From positions 1-38,774 of IMG/VR virus record IMGVR_UViG_3300042527_000114: a stretch of 38,774 bases of DNA, one strand, 5' to 3'. Numbering within the stretch: the stretch's first letter is position 1; each line of letters begins with the position of its first letter. The notes beneath the pieces were generated by a model, which was not told where the DNA came from, did no database searches, and saw only the letters and a program-made list of their open reading frames with translations. This DNA comes from a virus. The position numbers and the translations under genes were made by a program. Below are positions 1 to 38,774 of the stretch, in pieces.

Positions 1-252
1 ACTTGTGTATTTCCACATTGTGTTCTTCCATCATCAAGTGCACTATCGGTGTCGGCTCGTAGCCTTCCCGTATTCTGTCCTTGAGCCAGATGAACTGACC
101 GTCAGTCAGTTTAACATTCCCCTTGCGGGTCATGAAGGAACCATCTGCTGACTTCTCAATCTTGTTGCGTGACAGCAACATTTGAATCCGATTCTCATCT
201 TGAATCAGTCGCATGCCTCTGTCCCATTCCGTCAAGAAACGAGCGAACTCTT
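1..252. repeat. Terminal repeat, left copy (circle overlap)
   Basis: Positions 1-252 repeat at 38523-38774 with three differences: 75/38597 C/T, 119/38641 C/T and 125/38647 G/A. A gene crosses the point where the copies would join. This fits a circular or circularly permuted genome whose contig ends overlap, with a unique length of about 38,522 bp. It does not fit true physical terminal repeats well, because neither copy alone would then hold the whole gene. Confidence 0.95.
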
Positions 253-554: not shown

Positions 555-691
555 CGCTTGTTGACCGGCACCATCTGTACGGGGTGATTGCCCTTGTGAT
601 TTGTGCAGGTTGGTGACACAACCAACCGCACATACACGACGGTCTCTTGACCGCACCTAGGACACCGCCAGCGCTCTTGTAAGGCTCTCAT
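551..691 (-). CDS. Small zinc-ribbon protein (46 aa)
   Basis: The ATG at 691 overlaps the TGA of the Rpf-like gene as ATGA, and the gene stops at 551. The product begins MRALQERWRCPRCGQE and continues to a CTNH pair, giving a Cys-x2-Cys ... Cys-x2-His zinc ribbon. Tiny CPRCG-type proteins of this kind are common in actinophages, and their role is unknown. It closes the leftward accessory operon. Its stop codon lies inside the -35 element of the next promoter. The tight overlap and the intact metal site support a real gene. Confidence 0.75.
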   Translation of the reverse strand: MRALQERWRCPRCGQETVVYVRLVVSPTCTNHKGNHPVQMVPVNKR

Positions 692-1209
692 ACGCCTTTA
701 CCCCACGCATCCTTCACCGGAGGGTCTAGGTACTCACGGTTGCGAATACAGCCCCAGCCACGGTACCCAGCAGGGTAACGGAACTTGCCGGACGGTCTTG
801 TCCAGCCACGGATTGCGATGCGGTTAGCCACGATGATTTGGTGGCGTCGGCTAGCGAGCGAAGGGTGAGGGGCGAATTCGCCACCACCCCAAGCAAGCCA
901 TGTCTTATCAAAGATGCCGAGACCACCAGCCCATCTGCCTTTGTCCTGCCAGTTGCTAGCGGTTTCGCATTGGGCAACCTTGTCCCAATACTCGTCGGCT
1001 GGCACAGGCAGTTGCTTGAACCATTCCGGTGACCATTTCTCAGGCTTCGGTTGTGGTTCAGGTTTCTCGTAAAGAAACACAGCAGAGGTAAGGCGTGTGA
1101 TTTGGTCGGGCGGGGCTTGCGCCACTACTGGACTGACTACGCCAGTCAGCATCAGTAGAGCGCACGCTACCGCCTTGTACTTCAGGAGTCTTCTCCGCTT
1201 AAAGCGCAA
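688..1209 (-). CDS. Secreted Rpf-like transglycosylase
   Basis: 173 residues. Residues 1-32 form a signal peptide: an RFKRRRLLKYK n-region, a hydrophobic core ALLMLTGVV, and a cleavage-like VVAQA. Residues 74-156 match the resuscitation-promoting-factor transglycosylase fold: WDKVAQCE with the likely catalytic Glu82, then NW, GGLGIF, W, HQIIVANRI and a closing GWGC. Members cleave peptidoglycan glycan strands outside the cell and occur almost only in Actinobacteria and their phages, which is the main clue to the host. The start is a TTG overlapping the upstream gene by 28 bases, with no clear ribosome site, so the exact N-terminus is uncertain. It could aid lysis, entry or virion release. It is separate from the M15 endolysin at 32078. 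Confidence 0.85.
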   Translation of the reverse strand: MRFKRRRLLKYKAVACALLMLTGVVSPVVAQAPPDQITRLTSAVFLYEKPEPQPKPEKWSPEWFKQLPVPADEYWDKVAQCETASNWQDKGRWAGGLGIFDKTWLAWGGGEFAPHPSLASRRHQIIVANRIAIRGWTRPSGKFRYPAGYRGWGCIRNREYLDPPVKDAWGKGV

Positions 1210-2299: not shown

Positions 2300-3211
2300 T
2301 TAGACGGCACGGCTGTACCCAAACTCTAGGTCATCTTCGTCGTCCCACTTGGGCAGATAACAATCATGCGTGGAAGACCACACATAGTCTTGCGGTTCAT
2401 ATGAACGCATCTCGTCAGGGAAACAATCACAGTCACCGGACAAGGCGCTCATCTCGCAGTAGTAACAAGTGAAACACTTCGGACACGAAAGTGTGTCGTC
2501 AATGTTGTACTCGTCTACCTGCTCAACATGACCGCAGAAGTTGCATGACCATTCCTCTTGGAAATGGTATGTCTGCTCAGGTTCTGTCTTGCTGACAGTC
2601 TTGGTTGACGGTTGCCAGCCAGACGCATACATGCCGTAGCCCACATTTGAGTATGTGCGTGTCCACTTGTATGAACTGTTAGACCACCACACACCGTTGA
2701 CCCAATGACCTAGGTTCTCGTTGATGATGTAGTACGGTTTCTTGTTGTTCTTGTTGGCTGTCAAGATGACCAACTTGGAACCCTCAGCAAACTTGGAAAT
2801 CTTCTTCCGCATTTTCTTGGAGTCCAAGATAGGCGTGCCACCGCTTGCAGGCAGAATGTCTTCGGCAAAGACACGAGTGTCAGAGCGACCATTCTGTTCT
2901 TCTAACGGCAACATACCGTTGTGAGCAAGCACAGAGTGCTTGTCACGACCAATCTGGAACGGGTGACAGTTAGCCTTGTTCGTGCCACCATGCGTAGTGA
3001 TACGAGAGTGGAACAAGGCGGGACCGCTGTGCTTGTTGCGTTGCTTCATGAACTCATTAAGCACCTGCTCAAACACCATGCCGTGACCACGAAGAACCGT
3101 AGACCCAGCATGTATAGCCCAACCGAAACCGTCGGGATTGTTGTCGGCACCGACACGCAAATCTGTATCGCTTGCGGTGGTTCCTTCTTGCATGAATGTA
3201 AGTAGACACAT
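2300..3211 (-). CDS. Class II glutamine amidotransferase with C-terminal zinc ribbon
   Basis: 303 residues from the ATG at 3211. I prefer this over the ATG at 3217 because it places the nucleophile Cys at position 2 (MCLLTF), as Ntn-type GATase II enzymes require, and because AAAGG is then 9 bases upstream. Visible family residues are DGFGWA (27-32), FHSR with Arg70, THGG, HPF and the oxyanion/substrate motif AHNGM (96-100). Such domains hydrolyse glutamine and deliver ammonia to a partner synthase. Residues 222-262 carry a Cys-rich ribbon (CNFC, CPKC, CYYC, CDC), and the tail is acidic. No synthase domain is fused. The natural partner is the amidoligase immediately upstream in the operon. 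Confidence 0.9.
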   Translation of the reverse strand: MCLLTFMQEGTTASDTDLRVGADNNPDGFGWAIHAGSTVLRGHGMVFEQVLNEFMKQRNKHSGPALFHSRITTHGGTNKANCHPFQIGRDKHSVLAHNGMLPLEEQNGRSDTRVFAEDILPASGGTPILDSKKMRKKISKFAEGSKLVILTANKNNKKPYYIINENLGHWVNGVWWSNSSYKWTRTYSNVGYGMYASGWQPSTKTVSKTEPEQTYHFQEEWSCNFCGHVEQVDEYNIDDTLSCPKCFTCYYCEMSALSGDCDCFPDEMRSYEPQDYVWSSTHDCYLPKWDDEDDLEFGYSRAV

Positions 3212-3213
3212 TG

Positions 3214-4413
3214 TCATACACCTTTCTCTGTTGCGTATTCGCTGAATGTTGTGTAGCCCTCGTCAGTAGCGAACTGACGGAACTTGTCCCAACTGTAGGA
3301 CTGTTTGATATTGCCCTTGTACACCATGTTGCGTGCAAAGCGACACGCTGCATCGACGGCTTCGATGCGAGCGTTGAGCGACTTCGCATTGAGCGTACCC
3401 TTAAAGAACCGCAACTCAATAGTTGCGTGGTTCTGCAAGTTGAGTGCAACATAGCGGTCAAAGTTTGCGGACTGACCGATACGACCATGAGTGGTGATGT
3501 ACCTGATGTAATCCATCATGTTCTCACGCTCTTGGTCAGACCAGCGTGCGTAGGTTGACTCGCTACGACCAGCAATCTTGCGCCATTGCTCATTGTTCGC
3601 ATGGAACAACGCCATGAAGCGATACATGCTGGTGATGTTCTTCTGGAAATACTTACGACCCACATGAATGTGAAGACCGCAAGTGTTCGTGTTAGAAGAA
3701 CGCATACCCATGTTCGCCAACTCACGAAGACGAGTTGCATCAACACGCTCACGCCAGTAATCAAGCGTGAACGGGTGAGTCACAATCTCGTAACCGTTGT
3801 TGAGTGAACCGTCGCTCTTGAGATACGCAAGACTGCCAAAGATTTCTTGGGCAAGACGAGCGCCATCGTAACGGTCACAATGAACAGCCTCTGCTTCTAA
3901 CTCAATGCCAAGCGTCGGCTTGTCAACCGAACTAGGCATGGCCATAGCGTTAGACAAGATGACTTTCTTGCCGTGACGAGTGGACACAAAGTGGAACTCG
4001 GCACGAGGCTTGTAACCATAACCCTTGATGAGACCTTCGTCTTCATCTTCTTCTGGGTCATCTTCGCACCGGTAACAACCGTTGGCGTTTGTGTGGTGGT
4101 AGTCGTGTCGTGAACAGTAATCAACACGCCTGTCCCAACAGGTCTCGCACCAATAATCATCGTTGTCATCTAGCCAACGACAATCCTCGGTGAAGAACTG
4201 GTCGCCACAGTAACAACAACTAGTTGTGTACTCGCACATACAGTCTTCGCAGATGTTGCTGCTTTGTATCTCAAACGATGGTTGATACTGATGTTCGTCT
4301 GACTCGTCCGTGTCATTGACAAGGAAGTCGTTACAACATGAGTCACACGACCATGTTTCTGGTGGTTCTGCTTCGTTGTTGATTTCTTCTGGTGTTTCGT
4401 TTATGTCAGTCAT
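3214..4413 (-). CDS. Amidoligase-family (COOH-NH2 ligase) enzyme with N-terminal zinc fingers
   Basis: 399 residues. Residues 21-116 hold many Cys pairs (CDSC, CEDC, CCYC, CETC, CYRC) that look like stacked zinc fingers. An acidic linker follows (117-127). Residues 166-360 match the glutamine-synthetase-fold amidoligases: TLGIELEAEA (Glu171/Glu173), DGSL, GYEIVTHP, CGLHIHVG with HIH at 248-250, and IELRFFKGTL with Glu333/Arg335. These enzymes make amide or peptide bonds between carboxylates and amines using ATP. ATG at 4413 follows AAAGGAAA. The gene is coupled to the class II amidotransferase downstream and preceded by a palindrome 39 bases away. Substrate unknown; peptidoglycan or a protein tag are candidates. 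Confidence 0.9.
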   Translation of the reverse strand: MTDINETPEEINNEAEPPETWSCDSCCNDFLVNDTDESDEHQYQPSFEIQSSNICEDCMCEYTTSCCYCGDQFFTEDCRWLDDNDDYWCETCWDRRVDYCSRHDYHHTNANGCYRCEDDPEEDEDEGLIKGYGYKPRAEFHFVSTRHGKKVILSNAMAMPSSVDKPTLGIELEAEAVHCDRYDGARLAQEIFGSLAYLKSDGSLNNGYEIVTHPFTLDYWRERVDATRLRELANMGMRSSNTNTCGLHIHVGRKYFQKNITSMYRFMALFHANNEQWRKIAGRSESTYARWSDQERENMMDYIRYITTHGRIGQSANFDRYVALNLQNHATIELRFFKGTLNAKSLNARIEAVDAACRFARNMVYKGNIKQSYSWDKFRQFATDEGYTTFSEYATEKGV

Positions 4414-8079: not shown

Positions 8080-8112
8080 AAGTAACGAACGCTTTTACTG
8101 TAGAGGTCTTTG
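8080..8112 (+). other. Late intergenic gap with the recurring GTAACG motif
   Basis: AAGTAACGA (8080-8088) precedes the fibre gene, then AACGCTTTT and an AGAGG ribosome site. The same 9-mer occurs at 14501-14509 and 24566-24574 in other late gaps. GTAACG also occurs at 7377 and 16873. Confidence 0.35.
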
Positions 8113-9954
8113 ATGGGTAACAAGAAAGTAACTGAACTTGATGCTCTTGCTACGCTGACGACTGACGACCTGTTTTTGGTTGTTGACAACATTCCGGGCA
8201 CACCAGTTAGTAAAAAGATTAGTGCTGCCACTCTTGCTTCGTTCTTAACAACTCAAGGTCCACAAGGTGCACAAGGCGCTCAAGGTGCTACCGGTGCGCA
8301 GGGCGCTACCGGTGCACAAGGTGTTCAAGGCCCTCAAGGTTCGCAAGGTGCCATAGGTTCACAGGGACCTCAGGGTTCTATTGGCTCTCAAGGTGCGCAA
8401 GGTTCTATTGGTGCGCAAGGAACACAGGGCGCTCAAGGCGCACAGGGTGCGCAAGGTCCACAAGGTTTAACTGGTCCACAGGGTTCTACTGGTCCTCAAG
8501 GACCTCAGGGTGTTCAAGGTCCGCAGGGTGTCCAAGGAGCAACGGGTCCACAAGGTTCACAAGGTTCAACTGGTCCGCAAGGAACGCAAGGACCGCAGGG
8601 TGTTGCCGGTACTAGTGTAAACATTCTTGGCGAGTACGCTGATTATGCTGCGTTGGTTGCTGCGCATCCAACTGGCAGTTCTGGTGATGCGTATCTTGTT
8701 GCCAATGGTGACCTGTATGTTTGGTCAGCGAATACAAACAGTTGGACAAATGTTGGCAACATTGAAGGACCTACTGGTCCACAAGGAACACAAGGACCAC
8801 AAGGCGTTCAGGGTCCTCAAGGTGTACAGGGTGCTCAGGGTGCTACAGGACCCCAAGGTTCTCAAGGTCCTCAGGGAGTACAAGGACCTCAGGGTGTTCA
8901 AGGTGCCCAAGGTCCTCAGGGAGATGTTGGACCACAGGGTTCTCAGGGTCCGATTGGACCACAAGGTGTTCAGGGTGCTGTTGGACCTCAGGGTCCACAG
9001 GGAGATACCGGACCGCAAGGTCCACAGGGTTCTCAAGGTGCTACTGGTCCTCAGGGTTTGCAGGGACCACAGGGTGATACCGGTTCTCAGGGACCGCAAG
9101 GTCCACAGGGTGCTATTGGTTTAACAGGTCCGCAAGGTCCCCAAGGTGTTCAGGGACCACAAGGTGCCACTGGTGCTGGTGGAACCATTGCGTACTGGGG
9201 TTCGTTTTGGGATACAACTGACCAGACTGCTGCTGCAGCAAACACTGCTTACCCTATTGCCTTTAACAGTTCGGACCCTGATGGTGTTGGTGTAACTCTT
9301 TCAAACACATCTAGAGTTAATTTTGGGTATACAGGCATTTACAGCCTGACATTTTCTATTCAGTTTAAGAATACCGATACACAGATTCATGAAGCCAACG
9401 TGTGGTTGCGAAAGAACAATGCTGGTTCTTCTGGGGATGTTCCTGATACGGATACACGTTTGTCTGTACCAAACAAGCACGGCGGTGTAGACGGTTTTGG
9501 TTTGATGACTGTTAACTTTGTAATGAAGTTGACTGCTGGTGATTACATTGAGGTTATTTGGGCAACAACCAGTACCCAAATTTCAATTGATTCAAGTGCA
9601 CCCGGCACTTCTCCGGTTTCACCTTCAATCCCGGGTATTGTGTTTACTGCTACACAGGTCACATATACTCAGGTTGGACCTCAGGGACCGCAGGGTGCAA
9701 CTGGAACCCAAGGTCCGCAAGGTGCCACTGGTTCTCAGGGTCCCCAAGGCGCCCAAGGCGCTCAGGGACCACAGGGGCCTCAAGGTTTTACGACGCTTTC
9801 TGCTGCGACGGATGTTGCGATTACGTCCCCCGTAACGGGTCAAGCATTAGTGTATAACTCTTCATTGTCCAAGTGGGTCAACACAACGGCATCCACCGAC
9901 CCAATGAACGACACTAAGTTTACCGCTATCATTACTATGGATGTAGGAGTTTAA
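8113..9954 (+). CDS. Collagen-like tail fibre
   Basis: 613 residues from the ATG at 8113 (AGAGG 7 bases upstream). Residues 1-48 are a short N-terminal attachment domain ([12 protein letters not shown] ... [10 protein letters not shown]). Three blocks of Gly-x-y triplets, mostly G-P-Q and G-A-Q, follow at about 50-165, 221-350 and 522-560. A small insert with [13 protein letters not shown] sits between blocks 1 and 2. A beta-sandwich domain resembling C1q-type heads sits between 2 and 3 ([12 protein letters not shown] to [10 protein letters not shown]). Gln takes the place hydroxyproline has in animal collagen. Such phage proteins form trimeric fibres for host binding. The triplets make this DNA internally repetitive and recombination-prone. 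Confidence 0.9.
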
Positions 9955-11531: not shown

Positions 11532-12140
11532 ATGGGACTTTCTAATTATACACCATCCAGTCGCATTAGCCAGTCAGGTGTATGCACATCATCCACTAGA
11601 CCAGCCACACCTTATGAGGGTCAGGTTATTTATGAAACTGACACTGACATGGTTGCTGTTTGGAATGGCACAGCGTGGCGTTACATTGCTTCAACCACTG
11701 CAACAAGCGGCACAGTGTTGCAAGTTGTAAGCAACCAAACAACAACACAATCCGCAACAACTTCCACAACATACGTTGATGCAACAAACCTAAATGCAAC
11801 AATTACACCAAAATCTTCATCAAGCAAAATCCTCATTACTGCGTCCGTAGGAACGGGCCATGCGGAAGGAACAGGTGGATTTCTGCGTTTGTTGCGTGGA
11901 AGCACAGTTATCGGGGCGGACCCTCAAGTGTGGTTTTATACGGGTTCAACAGGCAGTCTTTATTCTGGTGCGCAAAGCACGTTTGAATACCTTGATTCGC
12001 CTGCGACCACAAGTTCAACAACGTACAAGATTCAGTATCGTGGAGAAAATGCTTCAGGCGTGTCTATCAACCGTGCTTATTCAGGTGTGGCCGGTCAAAT
12101 CATGGCAAGCACAATTACATTGATGGAGATTGCGGGCTAA
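11532..12140 (+). CDS. Fibre paralogue 3 (202 aa)
   Basis: Begins MGLSNYTPSSRISQSGVCTS and carries the PYEGQVIYETDTD ... VWNGTAW module (residues 18-52). The rest matches a beta-sandwich common in phage tail proteins: TSTTYVDATNLNATITPKS, SSKILITASVG, FLRLLRGSTVIG and a late TTYKIQYRGEN. It is the last fibre gene before the glycosyltransferase. Confidence 0.8.
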   Translation: MGLSNYTPSSRISQSGVCTSSTRPATPYEGQVIYETDTDMVAVWNGTAWRYIASTTATSGTVLQVVSNQTTTQSATTSTTYVDATNLNATITPKSSSSKILITASVGTGHAEGTGGFLRLLRGSTVIGADPQVWFYTGSTGSLYSGAQSTFEYLDSPATTSSTTYKIQYRGENASGVSINRAYSGVAGQIMASTITLMEIAG

Positions 12141-12159
12141 CAAGCCACATAAATGCATC

Positions 12160-12936
12160 ATGCATATTGCAGTAATAACAACTGCCTATAAAACACCAGA
12201 CTGGATTCTGGCAAGAACATGGGCAAGCCTAAAAAACCAGTCCAATCAAAATTGGACATGGTTTGTGTACGATGATTCACCAACAGATTTTGATGGCGTA
12301 GCCAGACAAATCTATGGGTATCAGTCAGACGAGCGTTATGTCGTGCATTACCTGAGACCGCCCACGGCTAGCGGTGGCAACATTGGTTTGGCAAAGCACA
12401 ATGCTTTCATGTGGGCGGAAGGAAACATTCTTCTGGAACTTGACCATGATGACGAACTGACACCAGATGCCTTAATAGAAGTACGCAACACATTTGTAGA
12501 CGCCGAAATTGGTTTTGTGTACTCAGACTGGTGCGAAATCCTCCCAGACGGAACCTCAGGCAAATACCCTGACGGGTGGGCGTTCGGCTACGGCGACCAC
12601 TACTGGGACACCGAGCACAACGTGTGGGCGATGAAAGCCCCACCCGTCAACGATGTCACACTGTCCCACATTGTGTCAGCACCTAATCATCTGCGAGCAT
12701 GGCGTTCAAGCGTATACAAAGAACTGGGTGGTCATGACGCAACCCTTGAGGTTGCGGATGACTACGACCTTGTTGTTCGTACTGCTGCGGTCACAAAAAT
12801 GCATCGCATACCCAAAATGCTGTACAAACAACACATTGGACCAATGACCGCCCAAAGGGAACGCAACGCTCTTATTCAAGAACTGGTTGCACAGATAAGA
12901 GCAAAGCATCCAGAGGTTATTTATGGACTTGAGTGA
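12160..12936 (+). CDS. Family-2 glycosyltransferase
   Basis: 258 residues. I chose the ATG at 12160 (MHIAVITTAYKTPDW) because it begins at the first beta strand of the GT-A fold; no good ribosome site is visible. The metal/nucleotide-sugar motif is LELDHDDEL near residue 92, preceded by SGGNIGLAKHNAF. The likely catalytic region follows (HLRAWRSSVYKELGGHD ... ADDYDLVVR). Such enzymes transfer a sugar from a nucleotide sugar to an acceptor. Placed between fibre genes and terminase in the late block, it could glycosylate virion proteins or modify the host surface against superinfection. No membrane segment, so cytosolic. It overlaps the terminase by 14 bases. Confidence 0.88.
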   Translation: MHIAVITTAYKTPDWILARTWASLKNQSNQNWTWFVYDDSPTDFDGVARQIYGYQSDERYVVHYLRPPTASGGNIGLAKHNAFMWAEGNILLELDHDDELTPDALIEVRNTFVDAEIGFVYSDWCEILPDGTSGKYPDGWAFGYGDHYWDTEHNVWAMKAPPVNDVTLSHIVSAPNHLRAWRSSVYKELGGHDATLEVADDYDLVVRTAAVTKMHRIPKMLYKQHIGPMTAQRERNALIQELVAQIRAKHPEVIYGLE

Positions 12937-24590: not shown

Positions 24591-27500
24591 ATGGCTAGCC
24601 CTATAGATGACCCTAGGTACGCTCTTGCCCGTCTGAGAGCCTCTCAGCAGGCTTCTGGCATCTCCCAAGGGGGTTCTAGGGGGTTGGTACTAGGCAAGAC
24701 CACATCGGCTGATGCAGCCCGTCTGGGTGCGTCTGCTGCGAACCTGATGGTCACTAACCCAACCTTGAAGGACCAGATTGACCGCATCAGGCTCGGTAAG
24801 CCTGCTGACGGTCGTGGCATTACAGGGGCAATTGCTGGGGCTGGCATTGGTGCACTCAAGGCTTTGGATGTATTCGCAATGCCGGGTCGTGCGGTGGTGT
24901 CCGGTATCCGTGAAGGCATTGATTTGTTTGATGCTAACCCTGAAACAAAAGCCTCTGTCAAGGATTTTGTTAAGCAGGTTAAAGACCCGACGTTTGGTGT
25001 TGGTAAAGCGTTTAAGATTGACACGGGCAATATTTGGATTGACCGTGGCTTGGGTTTCATTGGTGACGTTGCTCTTGACCCGTTGACGTATGCGACGTTT
25101 GGTGCTGGCAAGTTTGCTGGTGCATCTGGTCGTTTGGCTTTGGCTGAGAAGGTTCTTACGACTACAGGCGATAATGCTTTGGCGACTTCTGTTGCACGTT
25201 TGGGTCGTAGCGCAATTAAGGATGCTGAGATTCTTGAGCGTGTGGGTGCTAACCGTACTGGTGTGTACTTCTTGGGTAAGCGTATTAAGGTTGGTGCAAA
25301 GGACCAAGGTTGGCGTTTGCCTTTGTCTGGTGCAATTGGTGAACTTGGCGACACCGCTTTGACCAAACTTCGTTTGGCTGCAAGCGATACGAAGTTGGGC
25401 AAATACATGCAGAAGTTGACGACAGCACCTGATATGCGTGCTGCTCGTATTGCTTTGGCTAGAGGTGAGGTGACTCCTGATGCTGGTGGTTTGCTGATTC
25501 CGTTGATTAACTCTCGTAACACTCAGAGGGCTGCTTTGGGCGAGGCTTTGGATTTGGCTAATGTTGAGTTGAAGCAGTTGGTTGATTCGGAGACACCGCA
25601 GTCTTTGGATTTGTACCGCACTACGGTTCACCGTCTGCTTGAGAACCCTGCTGCGTTGGAGACGGCTACACCGGATGAGCAGCGTGCGTTTGAGGTGTGG
25701 AGAAAGTTTTTTGCTGACAAGGAGAATGTTGTTGGCAATGCTTGGAAGGAAGTTGACCCTGAGACTAACTGGCAGGGTGTGCAGAACTATTTCCCGCACC
25801 AAGTCAGCGAGGATGGTTTGCGTTTCAGTCAGGGTGATTCGCTGTTTGCTGATGAGTTGCGTACCACGTTTGGTAATGACCCGTTTGACACCCTTGGCGC
25901 TTTCCGTAGTAGGAAGTTGCGTGAGGGTGACAAGTTCTTCGGATACAAACTGAAGGGCGACGACCTTACGGTCGAACGCCTTAATCAGATTGCCCGTGAG
26001 TATGGCAAGATTGATTTTGATTTCTTTGAGACTGACATTGTGAAGGTTGCTCAGTCGTATGTGAACGACTTTGCTCACCACATGGGTTTGATTGCACGTA
26101 ACAAGCATCTTGCTGATACTGGTGTTTGGAAGAAGATGGAAGACATGCGTGTCTTCAAGACGTTTGTTGACTCTGAGGGTGTTGAGGCTGCGAAGCAGAC
26201 TGTTAAGCGTTCCGTTGATGATGTGAGCGATGCCCTCAAGGGGTCTAAGTCTGCGTTGGAGAATTTGGTTGCTGCCGTGCGTGAGCGTCAGGGTGCGACC
26301 GTGAAGGCGCTGGCTGCAGCAACCGAACCGGTTGTGACAGCCACTGAAGCGTCTGGTCGTTTGACTGCTGCTTTGGAAGCGGTTGTGGATTCACGCACAG
26401 AGTTGTTGCAGGCTCGTCAGAAGTTTGCGACATTGTTTGGTAGTCCTTCTGATTTGAAGCCAGGTGATGTGCCGGGTATTGGTCAGGCTGCTATTGATTA
26501 CATGTCTGAGTTGGATGACCGTATTGCTTCGTTGAAGGATGAGATTGAGCAGTTGGCTACTGATGTGGTTGAGCCTGCTGCTTTGAACTTTGAAGCCAAG
26601 CAAGCCAGACTTGAAATTGTTCTTGAGCAGTTGGAGCAGACTGGTAGGGCGATTGATGCTGCTGAAGCGAACATGAAGCGTGTTGCCGAGTTCGGCAACG
26701 TGCTTGAAGAAAACATGGAGCGCATCATTTCTGGTAAGGATATTGACTCTACGTTTGCTCAGGAAATCAGAAACATTCAAGACATCATTGGTGTTCGTGG
26801 CAAGAGTGCGGGTACAGAACTGAAGAAGGTCCGTCAGGGGATGGGTGTTCGTGGTTCGTTTAAGTCTTTTGTTCAGCGTGATGTGAGGAGCAAGAGGGCT
26901 GACAGTTTCTGGAAGCGTTTCAACGATGTGCCCGAGGTGAAGATTACCCAAGAGGCAGTTGAAGAGGGAATGACTGCCGCCAAGGTGCAGGAGTTCACAA
27001 CCAAGTTGTTCACTGAAAGCCTGAGTTTGACGCAGGTGCGTACTCTCGGCTTACACATGCTGATGACGGATTCCTTTGTGCACGGTGCAAACATTCCAGA
27101 GTTCCTTGTGCCATTTAGGAACACGTTGATGGATGCCTTGGAGAAGGCTAAGACTGCAGACTTTGCAATCAAGATGGATACCCAGTCGGTTGCTAAGGGC
27201 AACCGTACTTCTGCTCTCAGAACATTTGAGTCCACTTGGGAGCCAGCGAACTTGGTTGCCACAAACATCTCTGATGAAATGTCATCCATGGATGACTTTC
27301 TTCGCATCTTTTCTGGTGGGCTGACAGCAGGGACTAAGGCTTCCGAGGAGATGTCACCGTCGTTCATTAACAACCTGAGCCGTAGGTACCCTTGGCTTGG
27401 CGTCATGTTTGACGAGCACATGGAGGGTGCAAGACTGATTGAGTCTAATCAGGATTTGGTTGACCAGATTAAGTTGCGTCGTGCGGAGTTGGGTGAGGCT

Positions 27501-30500
27501 TACGAAGCCCCGTCAATCACGGTCGGTCAGGGTGCAACAGAGAATGTGTACTCGCCACGACAGGTTCTTGAGTTGTATCCGTCGAAGCGTGCGGAAGCAC
27601 GCCGAATCATGTACCCCGCCGGTATAGATTTTGTCGCTACAGCAAAGGAAGACCTGAAACGTGCTGTGATGCAGTACGCAATGTTGTCGGAAGTTGGAAC
27701 ACGCTTTAGTGCGTTGTCTAACGTCCTCCTACCATACGGGTTCATCCCCAGCGAAAGAATGTATTCTGCGATTACAGCAGCGGTTGCTGAGAAGTTCATG
27801 CCAGCGATTGATACGAGACTGGCTGCAATTGACCAAGCACGTTCAATTGTTGATAATATGCGTTCAGCGTATGCTGAGGCTTGGTCATTGGAGCGTCAAG
27901 TTGGTAATGCTAATCGTAAAGTTTCAATCTTTGACAAGGGATATAAAGAGTTTGAGGTTCGTTCCGCTGGTCAAGTGTTCAAAGATGTTGTTCAGCAGTT
28001 CTTGGATGGACCTGATGGTCCAATCCTGCGTGAAGCCATTGGTGAACGTCTCGTCACAATGGACGACCCGTTTGATATTTGGAAGGGTTGGAAGGACGCA
28101 AGTTCTGCTACCAAGCAGGGAAGCAAGTTTGATGCCCGTATTGCTAGCAACAACTGGTACGAAACAAAGGTTAAGCCTTGGTTTGAGGCTACATTCCCAG
28201 ACCAACCGGTAAGTAAGAAGGCTGCTTCGGACAAACTGAAGGCTTTGTACCCGTCCACCTCTAAGGCTGCTGGAAGAAATGTACGTTCAGCATTCTCTGA
28301 TGACGCCACACCAAGCATGGTTAGCGCTTGGTTTGATGACATTCTTGGTGGTGAAGTAAAAGTTGGCACCACTCCCATGAACCGCATGGATGTTGGTCGC
28401 ACTTTGAGCGAACCAATAAAGATTAAAAAAGAAGGTTTGCTTTCTATTAAAACAAAGAAAGATAGACAATTTCAACGGATGCTTGAAACAATGCTTGACC
28501 CCAATATCAACATTGGAGTATTCCTAAATGACCCAACACTTGCACAGTCCACGCCATCGCTCTATGCAAGAATGTTGAACAACCATGCTGATGAATTGCA
28601 AGCGTTGCTTGATAAGCGTCTTGCCTTGGGAGTTGAAAAGCAAGAACAAAGACTTGCAGAACAGGCTTTGGATTTCCAAATCAAGGAAGCACAGAGAAAT
28701 ATCCAAGGTTTGAAGCGTGGACCAAAGACACCACGTGACCAGTACCCATTGGCTGTGACTGGCGAACAGCCGAGCACTTCGGCTCGGACTGTTCTTGGCA
28801 AATATAACGAGGCGATGTCAACGCCTGATTACATGAAGGCGAGAAACGACGAAGAGATTGTCGGAGCGTTGGACCAGTTGGCTCACTTGGACCTCAGCGT
28901 TCACGCTGATGGTTTCATCCTGCGACCTGCTGTCACAGAAACACTTGAGGATGGTTCCGTAGTCACAACTGCCCCCGCTTTGTATGCGACCATTCTGAAC
29001 AAGCAAACCGGTCAGCGTGAGATTATTAAGTTCAGCGAGGCTGAATGGGATTCGCTGTATGCCGGTGTTCCATCTGAGACCAAGATTAAGAAGTTGCGTA
29101 GCGACCTCACCGCATCACGTCGTGATACGGCTCGGTTGCGTCGTGAGCGTGAGGAATTGCTTGCTCGTCGCAAGACCCTACAGGATACGTATGACAGCAT
29201 TGTGCGTTCAAGAGCGGGCACAGAGGTTGCGCTTAGCCCTGCTGCTGAGAAGAAGTTTGCTAAGGCTGTTGGTGATGTTGATAAGCGTGTCAAGTTCCTT
29301 AGTGAGCAGATTGACATTAATCAGAAGTTCAACGATGAGTGGTTGGCTGAACTTGAGGCTATTGCCAACCCCGAGGTTCGTGCTTCCGCTTTGGAAAAGA
29401 TGCGTGTTCTTGTCAACGGTAGTGGTGACCAGCCTGCTTTCTTCACAAAGGAAGAAATCAGTCGGTTTATCAATTTTGATTCGGCAACACAGAAGGCGTT
29501 GAAGGATGCTCAGGGCAGGAATGCTGGTCAGTTCTTGGGTGGTCGTCAACTTGGTAGCCGATATGTTCGTGGTGTTGGTGGCGATGTTGCTAACCGCAAG
29601 TTGCGTCTACAGCAGGCATGGCAGGCTACACCTGAGTACAGGTATTTGAACGATGTTGTCAAGCCGTTGGAGAATGACGCTCACGTTATCATGTATCAGC
29701 AGTACGCAAACAATATTCCGTTGTTGCGTCAGCAGATTGCTGCAGCACGGGCAAAGGCTGACCAGATTGATACTAGGTCTAAAAATATTGTTTCTAAGAT
29801 TTTTGGTGGAGAAGTTACTACAAGAGTATTTGGTGAAGACCAAATTACAAATGTAGTTGGCGAGTATGAGCGTGCTCTTGGAACTCTTGAACGTGGAATT
29901 GAATCTGCTCGGGGGGCTGGCATCGATGTTGCGCCAATTGTTGGAGAGTTTGGTGGTGAACTTGGTCAGGGTGACATTATTGGTGAGTTGAGGCGTATTG
30001 CTGGTGGTCTAGAAACAGCACGTCCTGCTGGTTCACGTATACAAATGGATGATACCGCTAGGTTGGCTGCTGAAGGCGAGCGTGCAGCGCTGGGCGCACA
30101 GCGTGAGCAGGATATCGCCAACGCCCTTGAGGCGTTGTCTCAGGCTGGCACAGCGGGGCGTGAACTTGGTGCTGGTCGTGCAATGGCACGTGAGGCTGCA
30201 GGGAAACTTGAGTTCGCTAGGAAGGTTCGTGCTTCGCTAGAGACGTTCTTGCAGTCAGAGCGTGAAGACCTGCGTCTAGAGATTCCAGAACTGCGCAAAG
30301 CGTATGATGATGCTTTGCTTAATCAAGGCAAGGAAGAGTTCAGCATCATTGCAACGTATGGTTCTCCAGAGGAGTTGAGGCGAGTTATTGCTGAAGGTCA
30401 ACCAGTTGTAGACGCACTGCAATCCGAGATTGATTCGTTGAATCGTCTAGTTGCCGACTTGCCGAAGATTGCACAGAAGAAATCTGGCAAGAACCTGAAG

Positions 30501-32081
30501 AGCGCAGAAAAGATTCGGGAGTTCAACGAGGAAGTTCAGAAGTGGATATTCCAAAACCAAGATGCTTTGCGTGTACTCGCAGAGAATCCTGATGACCCTG
30601 TGGCTAAGGCTTGGGCTGCTGCTTCTGTTGCTGAGTCTCGTTTCTTGAAGGCTCAACTTGCACGCAGCAAAGCCGATGAGGCTTTGTCTGCTGCTAAGGC
30701 GGGCACAATTCAGGAGAAGGTCATCAAGCCTTGGCAACAGTCATATGAGAAGTTGGCTAAGAAGTTCGCTGAAGAGCAGGGCATTGAGTACAAGAAGTTG
30801 ATTTCTTTGCGTGAGTTTGATTTGCCCAGTTACGGCATTGAGCCTGAGGTTTACAGGTTCTTGAAGAATGCTGAGCGCATTCAGACACCGAAGATTGCTA
30901 GGGAGTTGTCTAACTTCTTGGGCGGATACACACGGTTCTTCAAGGCTTACGCTACGCTCAGCCCGGGCTTCCATGTGCGTAACGCAATGAGCAACACTTT
31001 CATGATTTTTGCTGGCGGTGCAGATGTGCGCAACATGTTTGATGGTTTGAAGTTGTATAAGTCAATGGTTGACGCTTTGGCTAATGGCAGAACAATTGAT
31101 GATTGGGTTTCCACTTTGCCGAAGAATGTTCAGCCACGTGCTGACGTTGCAGCCCGTGTCACGATGGCTATGGGTGGCGGTCAGATTACCGAGGCGTTGG
31201 CTGGGTTGCCAACTGGCGGTGGACGCCTGACTGACAACATCGCTTTGCGTGCTTCACGTAAGGTTGGTAAGAACGTGGAAGGTTCCGGTCACTTCATGAT
31301 GGCGTATGACTCAGCCGTCAAGGACATGGATTTCAACACGGCGTTTGCAAGGACAAAGCGGTTCATGTTCGACTACAGCGACCCAACACAGTTGGACTTG
31401 ACTGTGCGTACCATCATTCCTTTCTGGACGTGGATGAGTCGCAACCTGCCGTTGCAGATTGTGAACCAGTGGTCAAACCCGAAGGCTTACGTTGCGTACA
31501 AGCGGTTTGCTAACAACATGGAGAACAGGGAAGACGACACGGTTATCCCCGGATACATCCGTGAGCAGGGTGGAATTAACCTTGGTGGTGGAATGATTCT
31601 TTCACCAGACTTTGGTTTCAACCGTTTGGAGCAGACGATTCGTGAACTCAACCAACCTAGAAGGTTGGCTTCGTATGTGAACCCTGCTTTGCGTGTTCCG
31701 TTTGAGTTGATGGGTAACACAAAGTTGTATTCGGGTCAGCAGTTCCGTGACAAATACATCCCAGTTGAGGGAATGTTCAAGGCTTTGATTCCGGTGCTGG
31801 CTGCTTCTGGTCAGTTGGAGTACAACTCACAGGGTCAGCCGATGATGACGGAGAAGGCGATGTACGGTTTGATGAATCTGGTTCCACCGATTTCAGCAGC
31901 GGAACGTCTGTTCCCGTCAACCGAGCAGTATCAGCGTGGGCATTCATCTCGGGTCGCTTCTTGGTTTGGTTTGCCGTTGCGTGAACTGCCACCGGAAGCA
32001 CAAGGTGACGAGTTGGCTCGTAGAACAAGGGAGTTGGCAGCACTTCGTGCTAAGCAACGAGCGATTGAGGAGGGGAAGTGA
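24591..32081 (+). CDS. Giant internal virion/ejection protein (2,496 aa)
   Basis: One open frame covers 19% of the genome. Residues 73-105 are hydrophobic (ITGAIAGAGIGALKALDVFA). Long coiled coils follow around 570-740 and 1475-1580, and 1830-2080 is charged and helical. From about 2100 a conserved domain is visible: SPGFHVRNAMSN, then RTKRFMFDYSDPTQLD and IIPFWTWMSRNLPLQI. I have seen this in huge phage polyvalent/virion proteins (the LPD type, from memory). The size, position and lack of a tape measure fit a protein ejected to make a channel across the envelope. No lysozyme motif was found. Two AT-rich patches (28390-28700 and 29770-29900) suggest mosaic insertions. Confidence 0.8.
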   Translation: MASPIDDPRYALARLRASQQASGISQGGSRGLVLGKTTSADAARLGASAANLMVTNPTLKDQIDRIRLGKPADGRGITGAIAGAGIGALKALDVFAMPGRAVVSGIREGIDLFDANPETKASVKDFVKQVKDPTFGVGKAFKIDTGNIWIDRGLGFIGDVALDPLTYATFGAGKFAGASGRLALAEKVLTTTGDNALATSVARLGRSAIKDAEILERVGANRTGVYFLGKRIKVGAKDQGWRLPLSGAIGELGDTALTKLRLAASDTKLGKYMQKLTTAPDMRAARIALARGEVTPDAGGLLIPLINSRNTQRAALGEALDLANVELKQLVDSETPQSLDLYRTTVHRLLENPAALETATPDEQRAFEVWRKFFADKENVVGNAWKEVDPETNWQGVQNYFPHQVSEDGLRFSQGDSLFADELRTTFGNDPFDTLGAFRSRKLREGDKFFGYKLKGDDLTVERLNQIAREYGKIDFDFFETDIVKVAQSYVNDFAHHMGLIARNKHLADTGVWKKMEDMRVFKTFVDSEGVEAAKQTVKRSVDDVSDALKGSKSALENLVAAVRERQGATVKALAAATEPVVTATEASGRLTAALEAVVDSRTELLQARQKFATLFGSPSDLKPGDVPGIGQAAIDYMSELDDRIASLKDEIEQLATDVVEPAALNFEAKQARLEIVLEQLEQTGRAIDAAEANMKRVAEFGNVLEENMERIISGKDIDSTFAQEIRNIQDIIGVRGKSAGTELKKVRQGMGVRGSFKSFVQRDVRSKRADSFWKRFNDVPEVKITQEAVEEGMTAAKVQEFTTKLFTESLSLTQVRTLGLHMLMTDSFVHGANIPEFLVPFRNTLMDALEKAKTADFAIKMDTQSVAKGNRTSALRTFESTWEPANLVATNISDEMSSMDDFLRIFSGGLTAGTKASEEMSPSFINNLSRRYPWLGVMFDEHMEGARLIESNQDLVDQIKLRRAELGEAYEAPSITVGQGATENVYSPRQVLELYPSKRAEARRIMYPAGIDFVATAKEDLKRAVMQYAMLSEVGTRFSALSNVLLPYGFIPSERMYSAITAAVAEKFMPAIDTRLAAIDQARSIVDNMRSAYAEAWSLERQVGNANRKVSIFDKGYKEFEVRSAGQVFKDVVQQFLDGPDGPILREAIGERLVTMDDPFDIWKGWKDASSATKQGSKFDARIASNNWYETKVKPWFEATFPDQPVSKKAASDKLKALYPSTSKAAGRNVRSAFSDDATPSMVSAWFDDILGGEVKVGTTPMNRMDVGRTLSEPIKIKKEGLLSIKTKKDRQFQRMLETMLDPNINIGVFLNDPTLAQSTPSLYARMLNNHADELQALLDKRLALGVEKQEQRLAEQALDFQIKEAQRNIQGLKRGPKTPRDQYPLAVTGEQPSTSARTVLGKYNEAMSTPDYMKARNDEEIVGALDQLAHLDLSVHADGFILRPAVTETLEDGSVVTTAPALYATILNKQTGQREIIKFSEAEWDSLYAGVPSETKIKKLRSDLTASRRDTARLRREREELLARRKTLQDTYDSIVRSRAGTEVALSPAAEKKFAKAVGDVDKRVKFLSEQIDINQKFNDEWLAELEAIANPEVRASALEKMRVLVNGSGDQPAFFTKEEISRFINFDSATQKALKDAQGRNAGQFLGGRQLGSRYVRGVGGDVANRKLRLQQAWQATPEYRYLNDVVKPLENDAHVIMYQQYANNIPLLRQQIAAARAKADQIDTRSKNIVSKIFGGEVTTRVFGEDQITNVVGEYERALGTLERGIESARGAGIDVAPIVGEFGGELGQGDIIGELRRIAGGLETARPAGSRIQMDDTARLAAEGERAALGAQREQDIANALEALSQAGTAGRELGAGRAMAREAAGKLEFARKVRASLETFLQSEREDLRLEIPELRKAYDDALLNQGKEEFSIIATYGSPEELRRVIAEGQPVVDALQSEIDSLNRLVADLPKIAQKKSGKNLKSAEKIREFNEEVQKWIFQNQDALRVLAENPDDPVAKAWAAASVAESRFLKAQLARSKADEALSAAKAGTIQEKVIKPWQQSYEKLAKKFAEEQGIEYKKLISLREFDLPSYGIEPEVYRFLKNAERIQTPKIARELSNFLGGYTRFFKAYATLSPGFHVRNAMSNTFMIFAGGADVRNMFDGLKLYKSMVDALANGRTIDDWVSTLPKNVQPRADVAARVTMAMGGGQITEALAGLPTGGGRLTDNIALRASRKVGKNVEGSGHFMMAYDSAVKDMDFNTAFARTKRFMFDYSDPTQLDLTVRTIIPFWTWMSRNLPLQIVNQWSNPKAYVAYKRFANNMENREDDTVIPGYIREQGGINLGGGMILSPDFGFNRLEQTIRELNQPRRLASYVNPALRVPFELMGNTKLYSGQQFRDKYIPVEGMFKALIPVLAASGQLEYNSQGQPMMTEKAMYGLMNLVPPISAAERLFPSTEQYQRGHSSRVASWFGLPLRELPPEAQGDELARRTRELAALRAKQRAIEEGK

Positions 32082-32539
32082 CGGTCAATAAGACTGACTA
32101 CTACAACTGGCAGAAAGCAACACCGTTGGATAAGCAACGGTTTAAGTCTGCATCACCGAACTTGGTAGCGTTGAACGATTACTTGGTCAAGCGTTTCGGT
32201 GGCACCAACTTAGGTATCTACAATCGGCGTGAGGTGCGCTCCGGTGGTGCGCCCTCATCGCACTCGTTCGGTGCAGCGCTGGATTACAGGTACGACTCAC
32301 GCAATGAGGCGACAAAGCACATCTTGCCGTGGCTGGTGAAGAACTCTAAGGAGTTAGGAATCCAAGTCATTCAGGATTATGTGGGCTGTGCCATCTGGTC
32401 GCCACACAAGGGGTGGCGTATCGTGGGTAAGGACGGAGAGTTTGGTCAGTCATGGGCAACATGGTTCCACATTGAGACCACGAAGACCGATTGGAAGAAC
32501 GGTGCCCGTATTGAATCTAGGGGGATTGTACTACCGTAG
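32078..32539 (+). CDS. M15-type peptidoglycan peptidase (endolysin)
   Basis: 153 residues from a GTG overlapping the upstream TGA, with GAGGAGGGG before it. The zinc-binding motif SSHSFGAALD holds His62 and Asp69, and WFHIE holds His131, the arrangement of M15 (VanY / L-Ala-D-Glu) peptidases. It would cleave stem peptides of the wall. No signal peptide and no wall-binding domain, so it needs a holin; candidates are the small membrane proteins at 14758, 14958 and 5562. It ends convergently, 23 bases inside the leftward hydrolase gene. Confidence 0.88.
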   Translation: MTVNKTDYYNWQKATPLDKQRFKSASPNLVALNDYLVKRFGGTNLGIYNRREVRSGGAPSSHSFGAALDYRYDSRNEATKHILPWLVKNSKELGIQVIQDYVGCAIWSPHKGWRIVGKDGEFGQSWATWFHIETTKTDWKNGARIESRGIVLP

Positions 32540-33122
32540 TAAACGGTGACCCTGTGTATGGGTCAAACTTCCCTGCTATTGAGAGCGCTTTTGTGACAAT
32601 ACGTTTTCCAGTAGCGATGTCAACTGACCGATTTCCAAGTAGAGCGTTGAGTGCTCCGAGTGCGTATGGTGCACCGGTTCCCACGGCGTAGATTCCGTTG
32701 CTGTCTGAGGTCCATCCGTAGTCAGATTCGATGACATAAATGATGCCGTGTATCGCAACAACGATTGTTGAATTCTGTTGCGCAAGGTGTTCTTTCTCTT
32801 CGTTGTCGGGCATCGCATACCCTTGAGTTTCAAAACACTCCCGCAGTGCGGGCACAAACTTGTTCGTGATAAACGCATCTAGTCTTTTTCCTTTCGCTGT
32901 CGCTGGCGGTGTCGGCGGTGTAAACGCATGATGGAGAATGTTGATGGCTCGCACGTCACCGGCTGCGCCTAAGACGTACTTGCCATTGGTTCCAAGTTTG
33001 GATGAACCAGCACCCAGCGTTGTGATTTGGTACGCCATACCAGAGGAATCAAATGATGAGATGCGAGAGTCGGTACCCAGCAGTGCGTACCCGTCTCCTT
33101 GGATTGCAACGATGGTTGTCAT
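32517..33122 (-). CDS. Proteasome/HslV-like Ntn hydrolase
   Basis: 201 residues. If the Met is removed, Thr1 begins TTIVAIQGDGYALLGTDSR with Asp17 where proteasome beta and HslV subunits have it. The rest of the pattern follows: a Lys in SSKLG (position 41, after an 8-residue insertion relative to Lys33), YVLGAAGD, and YAVGTGAPYALGALNAL, the conserved Gly/Ser-rich turn and helix (Thr replaces the usual Ser). This is the beta-subunit fold of self-compartmentalised proteases. No unfoldase is encoded. It could form its own ring, join host HslU/Mpa-like ATPases, or have another amidohydrolase role. It is last in the leftward operon (ATGA overlap) and convergent with the endolysin. Confidence 0.85.
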   Translation of the reverse strand: MTTIVAIQGDGYALLGTDSRISSFDSSGMAYQITTLGAGSSKLGTNGKYVLGAAGDVRAINILHHAFTPPTPPATAKGKRLDAFITNKFVPALRECFETQGYAMPDNEEKEHLAQQNSTIVVAIHGIIYVIESDYGWTSDSNGIYAVGTGAPYALGALNALLGNRSVDIATGKRIVTKALSIAGKFDPYTGSPFTTVVQSP

Positions 33123-33548: not shown

Positions 33549-33730
33549 TGCGAATCTTCTTCTCCCATTTGACGCTCAATCTCACGGGAGACGAGGACGA
33601 TTTCTTCAACGGCTGCAGGACCGAACTTGCTTTCAAGGAAGTGAATGATTGCGAATACATTTGCGACCAACCATTCAAAGTTGATGACGCCCTCTTCTTG
33701 GGCTTCTGTTGCTTCGGGTGTGTCAGACAT
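33545..33730 (-). CDS. Unknown acidic protein (61 aa)
   Basis: ATG at 33730 overlaps the end of the sigma4-Nmad1 gene (ATGTCTGA). It begins MSDTPEATEAQEEGVINFEW and continues with an amphipathic helix (FAIIHFLESKFGPAAVEEIV). No signal peptide or known motif. Coupled on both sides. Confidence 0.7.
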   Translation of the reverse strand: MSDTPEATEAQEEGVINFEWLVANVFAIIHFLESKFGPAAVEEIVLVSREIERQMGEEDSQ

Positions 33731-34523
33731 AGGTGTCTCCTAGTTGTAGTTGAAATGACCCCTCATTGAACATCAAGGCTATAACACAGTAGCCAACAAT
33801 GTCTTTGAGTGTGTCAACGATTGATTCGTTCTTTGCTTCGGTGCCTCGTGCCAGCAGGTTTGCGTAGCGTTCCACTTTGTCGGACATGCGAACGACGATG
33901 CCGAACATTCCGAAGGCGTTGATGTTGCCGTGACCGTAGTCGTGTTGCTTGGAGCACAGTAAGGTTGCCATGTGTCCTGAGTCCCATTCACCAAGTTTGC
34001 GCAGTTCATGAACGGTTGCTTCCGCAACCATTATGAACAAGCGCTGTGATGGCACGTCTTCGTTGACAACGCAGTCTCTCATCATGTCTCGCCAGTCAGC
34101 CAGAGACCCAGCCAAGTTTGTTGAGATGAGTTTGTCACCCTTGAAAGAGGTTGCCCATTGTCCGGCTGCTTGTTCCCATGTATCCGCCATTTGTACTCGC
34201 TTTCGTATGTCTGGGTCGGCTTGCATTTTCGCTTTGAGTTTATCAAACGCTTGATTTCTTAAGCGCCACACGTGCGTCTTGGTGATGCCAAGTTGGTTGG
34301 CAATCTGCTGGAGGCTGAGACGCTCTGTCATGCAGGCGTTAATAATCCACAGGTCTCGTGGTTCTAGTTCGTCAACATACTGGGCGACCACATCACGAAG
34401 AGCGTTCAGGTCATCGTTGACTTCTCGTGGTTCTTCAAGCGGTGTTGATTCCATCAGCGCTTGGTACTCGTTGAACGGCAGTCGTGCGTCAACGGTGTTC
34501 CACATGCCGTTGATGTCACTCAT
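33723..34523 (-). CDS. Fusion of sigma70 region-4-like HTH and Nmad1-like (DUF1599) domain
   Basis: 266 residues. Residues 51-98 read as sigma region 4: LEPRDLWIINACMTERLSLQ then QIANQLGITKTHVWRLRNQA, a helix-turn-helix with the expected spacing. Residues 185-252 match the nucleotide-modification-associated domain: KQHDYGHGNINAFGMFGIVV then RMSDKVERYANLL and ESIVDTLKDIVGYCVIAL. The connecting part (105-180) is helical. Nmad1 proteins accompany phage and bacterial base-modification genes; the HTH suggests DNA targeting or transcription control. The start is supported by an ATGAGTGA overlap. No core sigma region 2 is present, so it is not a full sigma factor. Confidence 0.82.
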   Translation of the reverse strand: MSDINGMWNTVDARLPFNEYQALMESTPLEEPREVNDDLNALRDVVAQYVDELEPRDLWIINACMTERLSLQQIANQLGITKTHVWRLRNQAFDKLKAKMQADPDIRKRVQMADTWEQAAGQWATSFKGDKLISTNLAGSLADWRDMMRDCVVNEDVPSQRLFIMVAEATVHELRKLGEWDSGHMATLLCSKQHDYGHGNINAFGMFGIVVRMSDKVERYANLLARGTEAKNESIVDTLKDIVGYCVIALMFNEGSFQLQLGDTYV

Positions 34524-38471: not shown

Positions 38472-38774
38472 AGTAGTACTCTCCGCACTCTTTCATTCTG
38501 CGTCGTAGTTTTGAAACATACGACTTGTGTATTTCCACATTGTGTTCTTCCATCATCAAGTGCACTATCGGTGTCGGCTCGTAGCCTTCCCGTATTTTGT
38601 CCTTGAGCCAGATGAACTGACCGTCAGTCAGTTTAACATTTCCCTTACGGGTCATGAAGGAACCATCTGCTGACTTCTCAATCTTGTTGCGTGACAGCAA
38701 CATTTGAATCCGATTCTCATCTTGAATCAGTCGCATGCCTCTGTCCCATTCCGTCAAGAAACGAGCGAACTCTT
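38461..38774 (-). CDS. HTH protein with N-terminal Cys/His cluster, 3' part (continues from position 1)
   Basis: C-terminal part of the 159-residue protein that starts at 418. The frame is open to the contig end, so a start at a TTG inside it (38757) is only an artefact of truncation. This copy differs from the left one by two synonymous changes and one Lys/Arg change. The HTH-like segment (LTDGQFIWLKDKIREGYEPT ... SYVSKLRRRMKECG) is here. Its stop overlaps the start of the Cas4-like gene by 11 bases. Confidence 0.8.
   Translation of the reverse strand, partial: EFARFLTEWDRGMRLIQDENRIQMLLSRNKIEKSADGSFMTRKGNVKLTDGQFIWLKDKIREGYEPTPIVHLMMEEHNVEIHKSYVSKLRRRMKECGEYYYED
38523..38774. repeat. Terminal repeat, right copy (circle overlap)
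   Basis: Right-hand copy of positions 1-252; see the left copy for the differences. Confidence 0.95.

Follow-up and report, generated by a model that had tools for sequence, protein, structure and literature searches.

Two adjacent genes on the minus strand fill positions 2300-4413 of the window (the whole stretch of DNA analysed, the 38,774 bases of an IMG/VR virus record). The upstream gene (3214..4413, 399 aa) encodes a glutamine synthetase (GS)-fold amidoligase of the Amidoligase_2 family. Immediately downstream is the gene for a class II glutamine amidotransferase (GATase; 2300..3217, 305 aa, or 303 aa from its Met-Cys start). The original prediction had given this span exactly, and the order as found. 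The longest GATase frame starts MTMCLL, and from its first ATG overlaps the amidoligase gene by 4 bp, whereas from the second ATG (3211), with the product starting MCLL, the two are separated by a gap of 2 nt. The second ATG is taken as the start probably in use, since the Met-Cys start is conserved in relatives and the Cys nucleophile needs to be at position 2. The amidoligase scores 38.4 bits against Amidoligase_2 (PF12224), above the curated Pfam cut-off of 22, and the GATase 28.4 bits against GATase_4 (PF13230; cut-off 23). Glutamine synthetase models are absent among the Pfam and NCBIfam matches of the amidoligase, and what the two have in common is the fold alone. In PHROGs, the amidoligase falls in phrog_16683 (2e-32) and the GATase in phrog_25883 (2e-37), both families of unknown function.

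Both proteins have a Cys-rich part. That of the amidoligase is N-terminal (residues 23-116; 4066..4347, minus strand). The 'about five' Cys pairs first counted there were close to the mark, and column counts in the alignment of relatives raise the number to six conserved CxxC/CxxH pairs (C23/26, C55/58, C66/69, C89/92, C100/H103 and C113/116). The separate ribbon predicted for the GATase is borne out by eight conserved Cys in its C-terminal tail (C223, 226, 243, 246, 249, 252, 261 and 263; 2423..2545, minus strand), each present in 55-56 of 60 rows. These residues would suffice for three zinc ions in the amidoligase and two in the GATase, zinc being the probable metal. The ribbons come together: among 140 non-redundant pairs, 123 have them on both partners, 4 on the amidoligase only, 2 on the GATase only, and in 11 they are missing from both or incomplete (123 against 11 with 6 mixed gives a Fisher p of 1.5e-11, uncorrected for kinship). 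Their joint presence favours docking between the partners as the putative role of the ribbons, although the partnership itself outlasts their loss (MEP401/402).

The glutaminase (Ntn) domain of the GATase (residues 1-201; 2609..3211, minus strand) has all the features of class II: a Cys after the initiator Met in 60 of 60 sequences, the R, T, N-G and D of the glutamine site, and the Ntn fold. Cys2, H68, R70, T73, G75, N98, G99 and D111 are invariant in the 60-row alignment, and H74 is present in 55 of the rows. The site aligns with the 'HTRWATHG' and 'HNG' motifs of GlmS, R70 falling on R73, T73 on T76 and H74 on H77, together with N98 and G99. In the catalytic domain of the amidoligase (residues 140-399; 3217..3996, minus strand), G169, E171, E173, D201, E209, H248, H250, T331, E333 and R335 are invariant across 59 rows and R283 is found in 58; the ExE, D/E..E, HxH and ExR residues of a GS-type fold are thus all present. 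Its GIELE motif (E171/E173) aligns with YbdK at a low hhalign probability (41%), and H248 falls on 'GSGMHCH' and E333/R335 on 'RRIEVRF' of GlnA at a lower one still (4%). The spacing from D201 to E209 is 8 residues, as in the glutamate pair of GlnA. Because the profile match is this weak, the residue mapping to glutamine synthetase rests on motif, order, spacing and fold together. Mapped in this way, the amidoligase presumably has a residue at each of the six metal-ligand positions defined by glutamine synthetase structures, with Asp at one of them.

AlphaFold models, made from alignments of the window proteins and their relatives, have a pLDDT of 86 for each protein. The closest solved structures to the catalytic part of the amidoligase are YbdK-type ligases (VIA Z 11.8, rmsd 4.3, 224 aligned), with glutamine synthetases at a VIA Z of about 11; Foldseek also returns PafA and Dop. 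Residues 2-183 of the GATase match GlmS (VIA Z 14.6, rmsd 3.5, 171 residues), EgtC (13.8) and PurF (13.4). These fold searches speak for the catalytic parts, the Cys-rich parts being barely covered. A search by sequence brought up no solved Amidoligase_2 structure, though one may still exist. By alignment and by fold model both active sites are intact. The degenerate sites that the original prediction had named as counting against it are not seen, and the notion that the enzymes are degenerate is rejected on the conservation of catalytic residues in both families.

The linkage of the two genes is near-obligate and beyond chance. In viral loci found with the GATase as seed, the amidoligase lies directly upstream in 79 of 80, and the remaining locus starts at a contig edge; with the amidoligase as seed, a GATase is alongside in 69 of 72; and the pair is present in 38 of 39 bacterial genome loci (these counts include some near-copies or loci of the same contig). 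Relatives in which the two are never adjacent, the other finding that was to count against the prediction, are thus not what the loci contain. The genes overlap or are at most 30 nt apart in 222 of 236 pairs. At two loci (L214 and L215) the amidoligase is a distant one and a GATase-like gene lies upstream at some remove, which may represent a rearranged pair. Pairwise distances in the two families correlate at 0.92 (140 non-redundant pairs), which is a measure of joint inheritance, mostly shared descent, and not of contact. Nocardia loci (L106-L142) have two amidoligase-GATase pairs in tandem, in the same order and of separate lineages, with extra copies in some genomes. In the amidoligase tree, and again in the GATase tree, the first pairs form one clade and the second pairs another, so the pair was duplicated and retained as a unit.

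Isolated phages with relatives of the pair are the Marvin-like phages of M. smegmatis and the Methylophilales phages MEP401/402, and an environmental podovirus also has it; phages of Gram-negative hosts are among the carriers. It is also found on mycobacterial plasmids, in 18 of 59 Nocardia genomes and in 3 of 200 genomes across the order. This sparse occurrence led to rejection of a core function in Nocardia, and DUF4192 and prim-pol genes nearby suggest that the Nocardia loci are mobile elements. For the window phage an actinobacterial host is plausible, given WhiB in relatives, an Rpf-type domain in the window and the infection of Mycobacterium by isolated relatives. The ends of the window (1-252 and 38523-38774) overlap, with 249 of 252 bases matching, so the contig represents almost in full a genome of about 38.5 kb. 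In it, the pair belongs to the leftward module, together with genes for an exonuclease, DnaB, a primase and RusA, a setting that makes early expression likely. PADLOC gave no match that would identify the pair as a defence system.

Other genes of the window merit mention in their own right. The window encodes a protein with many collagen-type repeats (8110-9954, plus strand) and, next to the terminase, a family 2 glycosyltransferase (12130-12936, plus strand); the two possibly serve a glycosylated virion decoration. The block of virion genes ends with one for a 2,496-aa protein lacking a Pfam match (24591-32081, plus strand). At 33723-34523 (minus strand) sigma-70 region 4 is fused to DUF1599 (nucleotide modification associated domain 1). 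An HslV-like Ntn peptidase is encoded at 32517-33122 (minus strand; phrog_1040, 1e-20). It was considered as the partner of a PafA-fold ligase and rejected as not obligate, since the 16 records that encode it, out of 35 with the pair, come from a single set of related phages; though present in the window, its gene is missing from the closest relatives of the window, from Marvin and from MEP401.

The two genes, with a probability of about two in three, specify one two-subunit glutamine- and ATP-dependent carboxamide synthase. The GATase would cleave glutamine via its N-terminal Cys and free ammonia. The amidoligase would use ATP and metal ions to activate a carboxylate by converting it to an acyl phosphate, and attack on this by the ammonia would yield the carboxamide (R-COOH + Gln + ATP -> R-CONH2 + Glu + ADP + Pi). 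The Cys ribbons, probably with zinc, would most likely dock the partners, so that ammonia passes between them. The gene pair, its predicted folds, the intact catalytic residues, the linkage and the joint inheritance are observed; the formation of a complex, the transfer of ammonia and the order of steps we infer. The enzymology originally proposed, in which a glutaminase supplies ammonia to an amidoligase and the two act jointly to form an amide, is well supported by the sites, the folds and the near-obligate adjacency.

As to what is amidated, the likeliest substrate, put forward tentatively from context and in itself less likely than not, would be a peptidoglycan stem-peptide precursor, at the carboxyl of D-iGlu or mDAP, the target that the original prediction found attractive. 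The wall peptide leads because host genes with the same wall chemistry decide phage sensitivity: in L. casei, sensitivity to phage J1 falls about 10,000-fold in asnH mutants (PMC3885529), and a murT mutation has been implicated in the SOCP resistance of pneumococci (PMC4652380). Amidation of the wall during infection might then alter the action of competing phages or of hydrolases. In several groups a secreted transglycosylase is encoded some 1-2 kb downstream of the pair on the same strand, and at least three kinds are represented: Rpf-type in 22 loci, SLT-like in 74 (with weak Pfam scores) and SLT/SLT_3 in 5. That of the window (688..1209, minus strand; PF06737, 5e-14) is Rpf-type with an N-terminal hydrophobic stretch, holds the same position in the 22 loci of its group, and is probably the lysin; it is context and not part of the enzyme. 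A lysin neighbour was rejected as proof of a wall role, as the groups share gene order and are not independent, and other groups lack the lysin. Plasmids and Nocardia elements also have the pair, and as the timing of lysis is of no consequence there, a role confined to lysis is disfavoured. Its occurrence in phages of Gram-negative hosts likewise counts against the proposal.

The pair may instead amidate a macromolecule, either a protein (of host or phage) or a carboxylate linked to nucleic acid, with the ribbons binding the polymer and not each other. We consider this unlikely, though several features are in keeping with it. Both proteins have ribbons, the N-terminal part of the amidoligase having up to 22 Cys, and there is a weak profile likeness to zinc-ribbon RNA-binding proteins, LIM domains and TFIIE; those likenesses, however, all have E values of at least 0.03, and several relatives, MEP401/402 for example, keep the pair without ribbons. 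PafA and Dop, which have the same fold, act on proteins; the pair is on plasmids and mobile elements; and DUF1599 is encoded elsewhere in the genome. Nevertheless, no base-hypermodification pathway was found among the window ORFs scanned. A more specific version, that a zinc-knitted two-subunit amide synthase borne by phages, plasmids and Nocardia elements amidates a macromolecule and not a free wall precursor, we regard as improbable. If true, it would be a class of macromolecular amidation borne by phages and without earlier description.

EgtA and EgtC act as ligase and hydrolase in ergothioneine synthesis. By analogy, the GS-fold enzyme could couple an amine to gamma-glutamate, and hydrolysis of the gamma-glutamyl amide would fall to the GATase-like protein. 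EgtC is within 1 Z of GlmS as a fold match to the GATase, and the YbdK branch to which the amidoligase is closest is one of glutamate-cysteine ligase-like enzymes. In one phage group, moreover, the pair is followed some 2.3 kb downstream by a PF06094 (AIG2-like gamma-glutamyl cyclotransferase) gene (L145:10317-10829, and also in L010, L014 and L024). Yet sequence comparison matches the GATase to GlmS and PurF (2.5e-8 to 5e-5), with EgtC absent up to an E value of 10, and retention of the GlmS-type His (H74) in most relatives also speaks against this reading; that the pair adds and removes gamma-glutamate is quite improbable. The least likely proposal, a small metabolite or peptide (secondary metabolite) as the product and not a wall change, comes from the describers of mycobacteriophage Marvin, whom PMC10580990 quotes, and is improbable here, as the neighbour clusters (those inside the pair on the opposite strand being shadow frames) show no precursor-peptide or other biosynthetic gene recurring across groups.

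The carboxamide synthase proposed here has known counterparts. Annotations of Marvin-like and MEP phages already include the pair itself. In Marvin (gp105/gp106) and MEP401/MEP402 it consists of the same two families in the same order, adjacent or overlapping, the proteins being about 21-35% identical to those of the window. Marvin has both Cys-rich parts, as in the window, but a gap of 79 nt between the genes, and the MEP phages lack full ribbons. The idea of wall modification and a block to superinfection is also known, having been proposed for phage amidoligase/GATase genes in 2009 by Iyer, as that work is cited in PMC10580990, PMC11318856 and PMC5498523, and repeated since; phage amidoligases have also been catalogued as auxiliary genes. 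The open-licence literature searched contained no experimental test of wall modification by a phage amidoligase, and no description of the nearly inseparable two-gene branch with Cys ribbons, of its tandem doubling in Nocardia or of its breadth. The two-gene form is the smallest testable version, with isolated relatives available in M. smegmatis phages, and could reveal whether phages rewrite amidation of the host wall or of something else. The Nocardia tandem double pair shows that the function is retained outside phages.

Fold and metal-ligand pattern are common to the amidoligase, YbdK and glutamine synthetase. To our knowledge, the latter two have neither a GATase partner nor Cys ribbons and take ammonia or an amine directly. 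MurT/GatD and AsnB/LtsA/AsnH likewise carry out glutamine- and ATP-dependent amidation, in their case of wall peptides, and their loss or mutation shifts phage sensitivity. MurT, a Mur ligase, is partnered by a class I GATase. The window pair, unlike MurT/GatD, combines a GS fold with a class II GATase, and the GS fold is lacking from AsnB/LtsA/AsnH also. In these last, the class II GATase is fused to an (asparagine-)synthetase domain, whereas in the window protein nothing but the Cys-rich tail comes after the GATase domain. A further counterpart is the 'peptidoglycan modification cassette' of phiEco32, LUZ24 and PSA-HP1 (Iyer 2009; PMC5498523; for UFV-P2, PMC3890496). Like the window, it has Amidoligase_2 together with a class II GATase among early or DNA-metabolism genes, and it too has been proposed to alter the wall and block superinfection. 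Cassettes of the phiEco32/LUZ24 type add ATP-grasp and a COOH-NH2 ligase or second amidoligase, and some a gamma-glutamyl cyclotransferase; no ATP-grasp, COOH-NH2 ligase, second amidoligase or gamma-glutamyl cyclotransferase is among the window ORFs scanned against Pfam. The window pair differs from them also in its Cys ribbons. It is a minimal two-gene version, without ATP-grasp or COOH-NH2 ligase, that has ribbons on both partners and is carried on plasmids as well.
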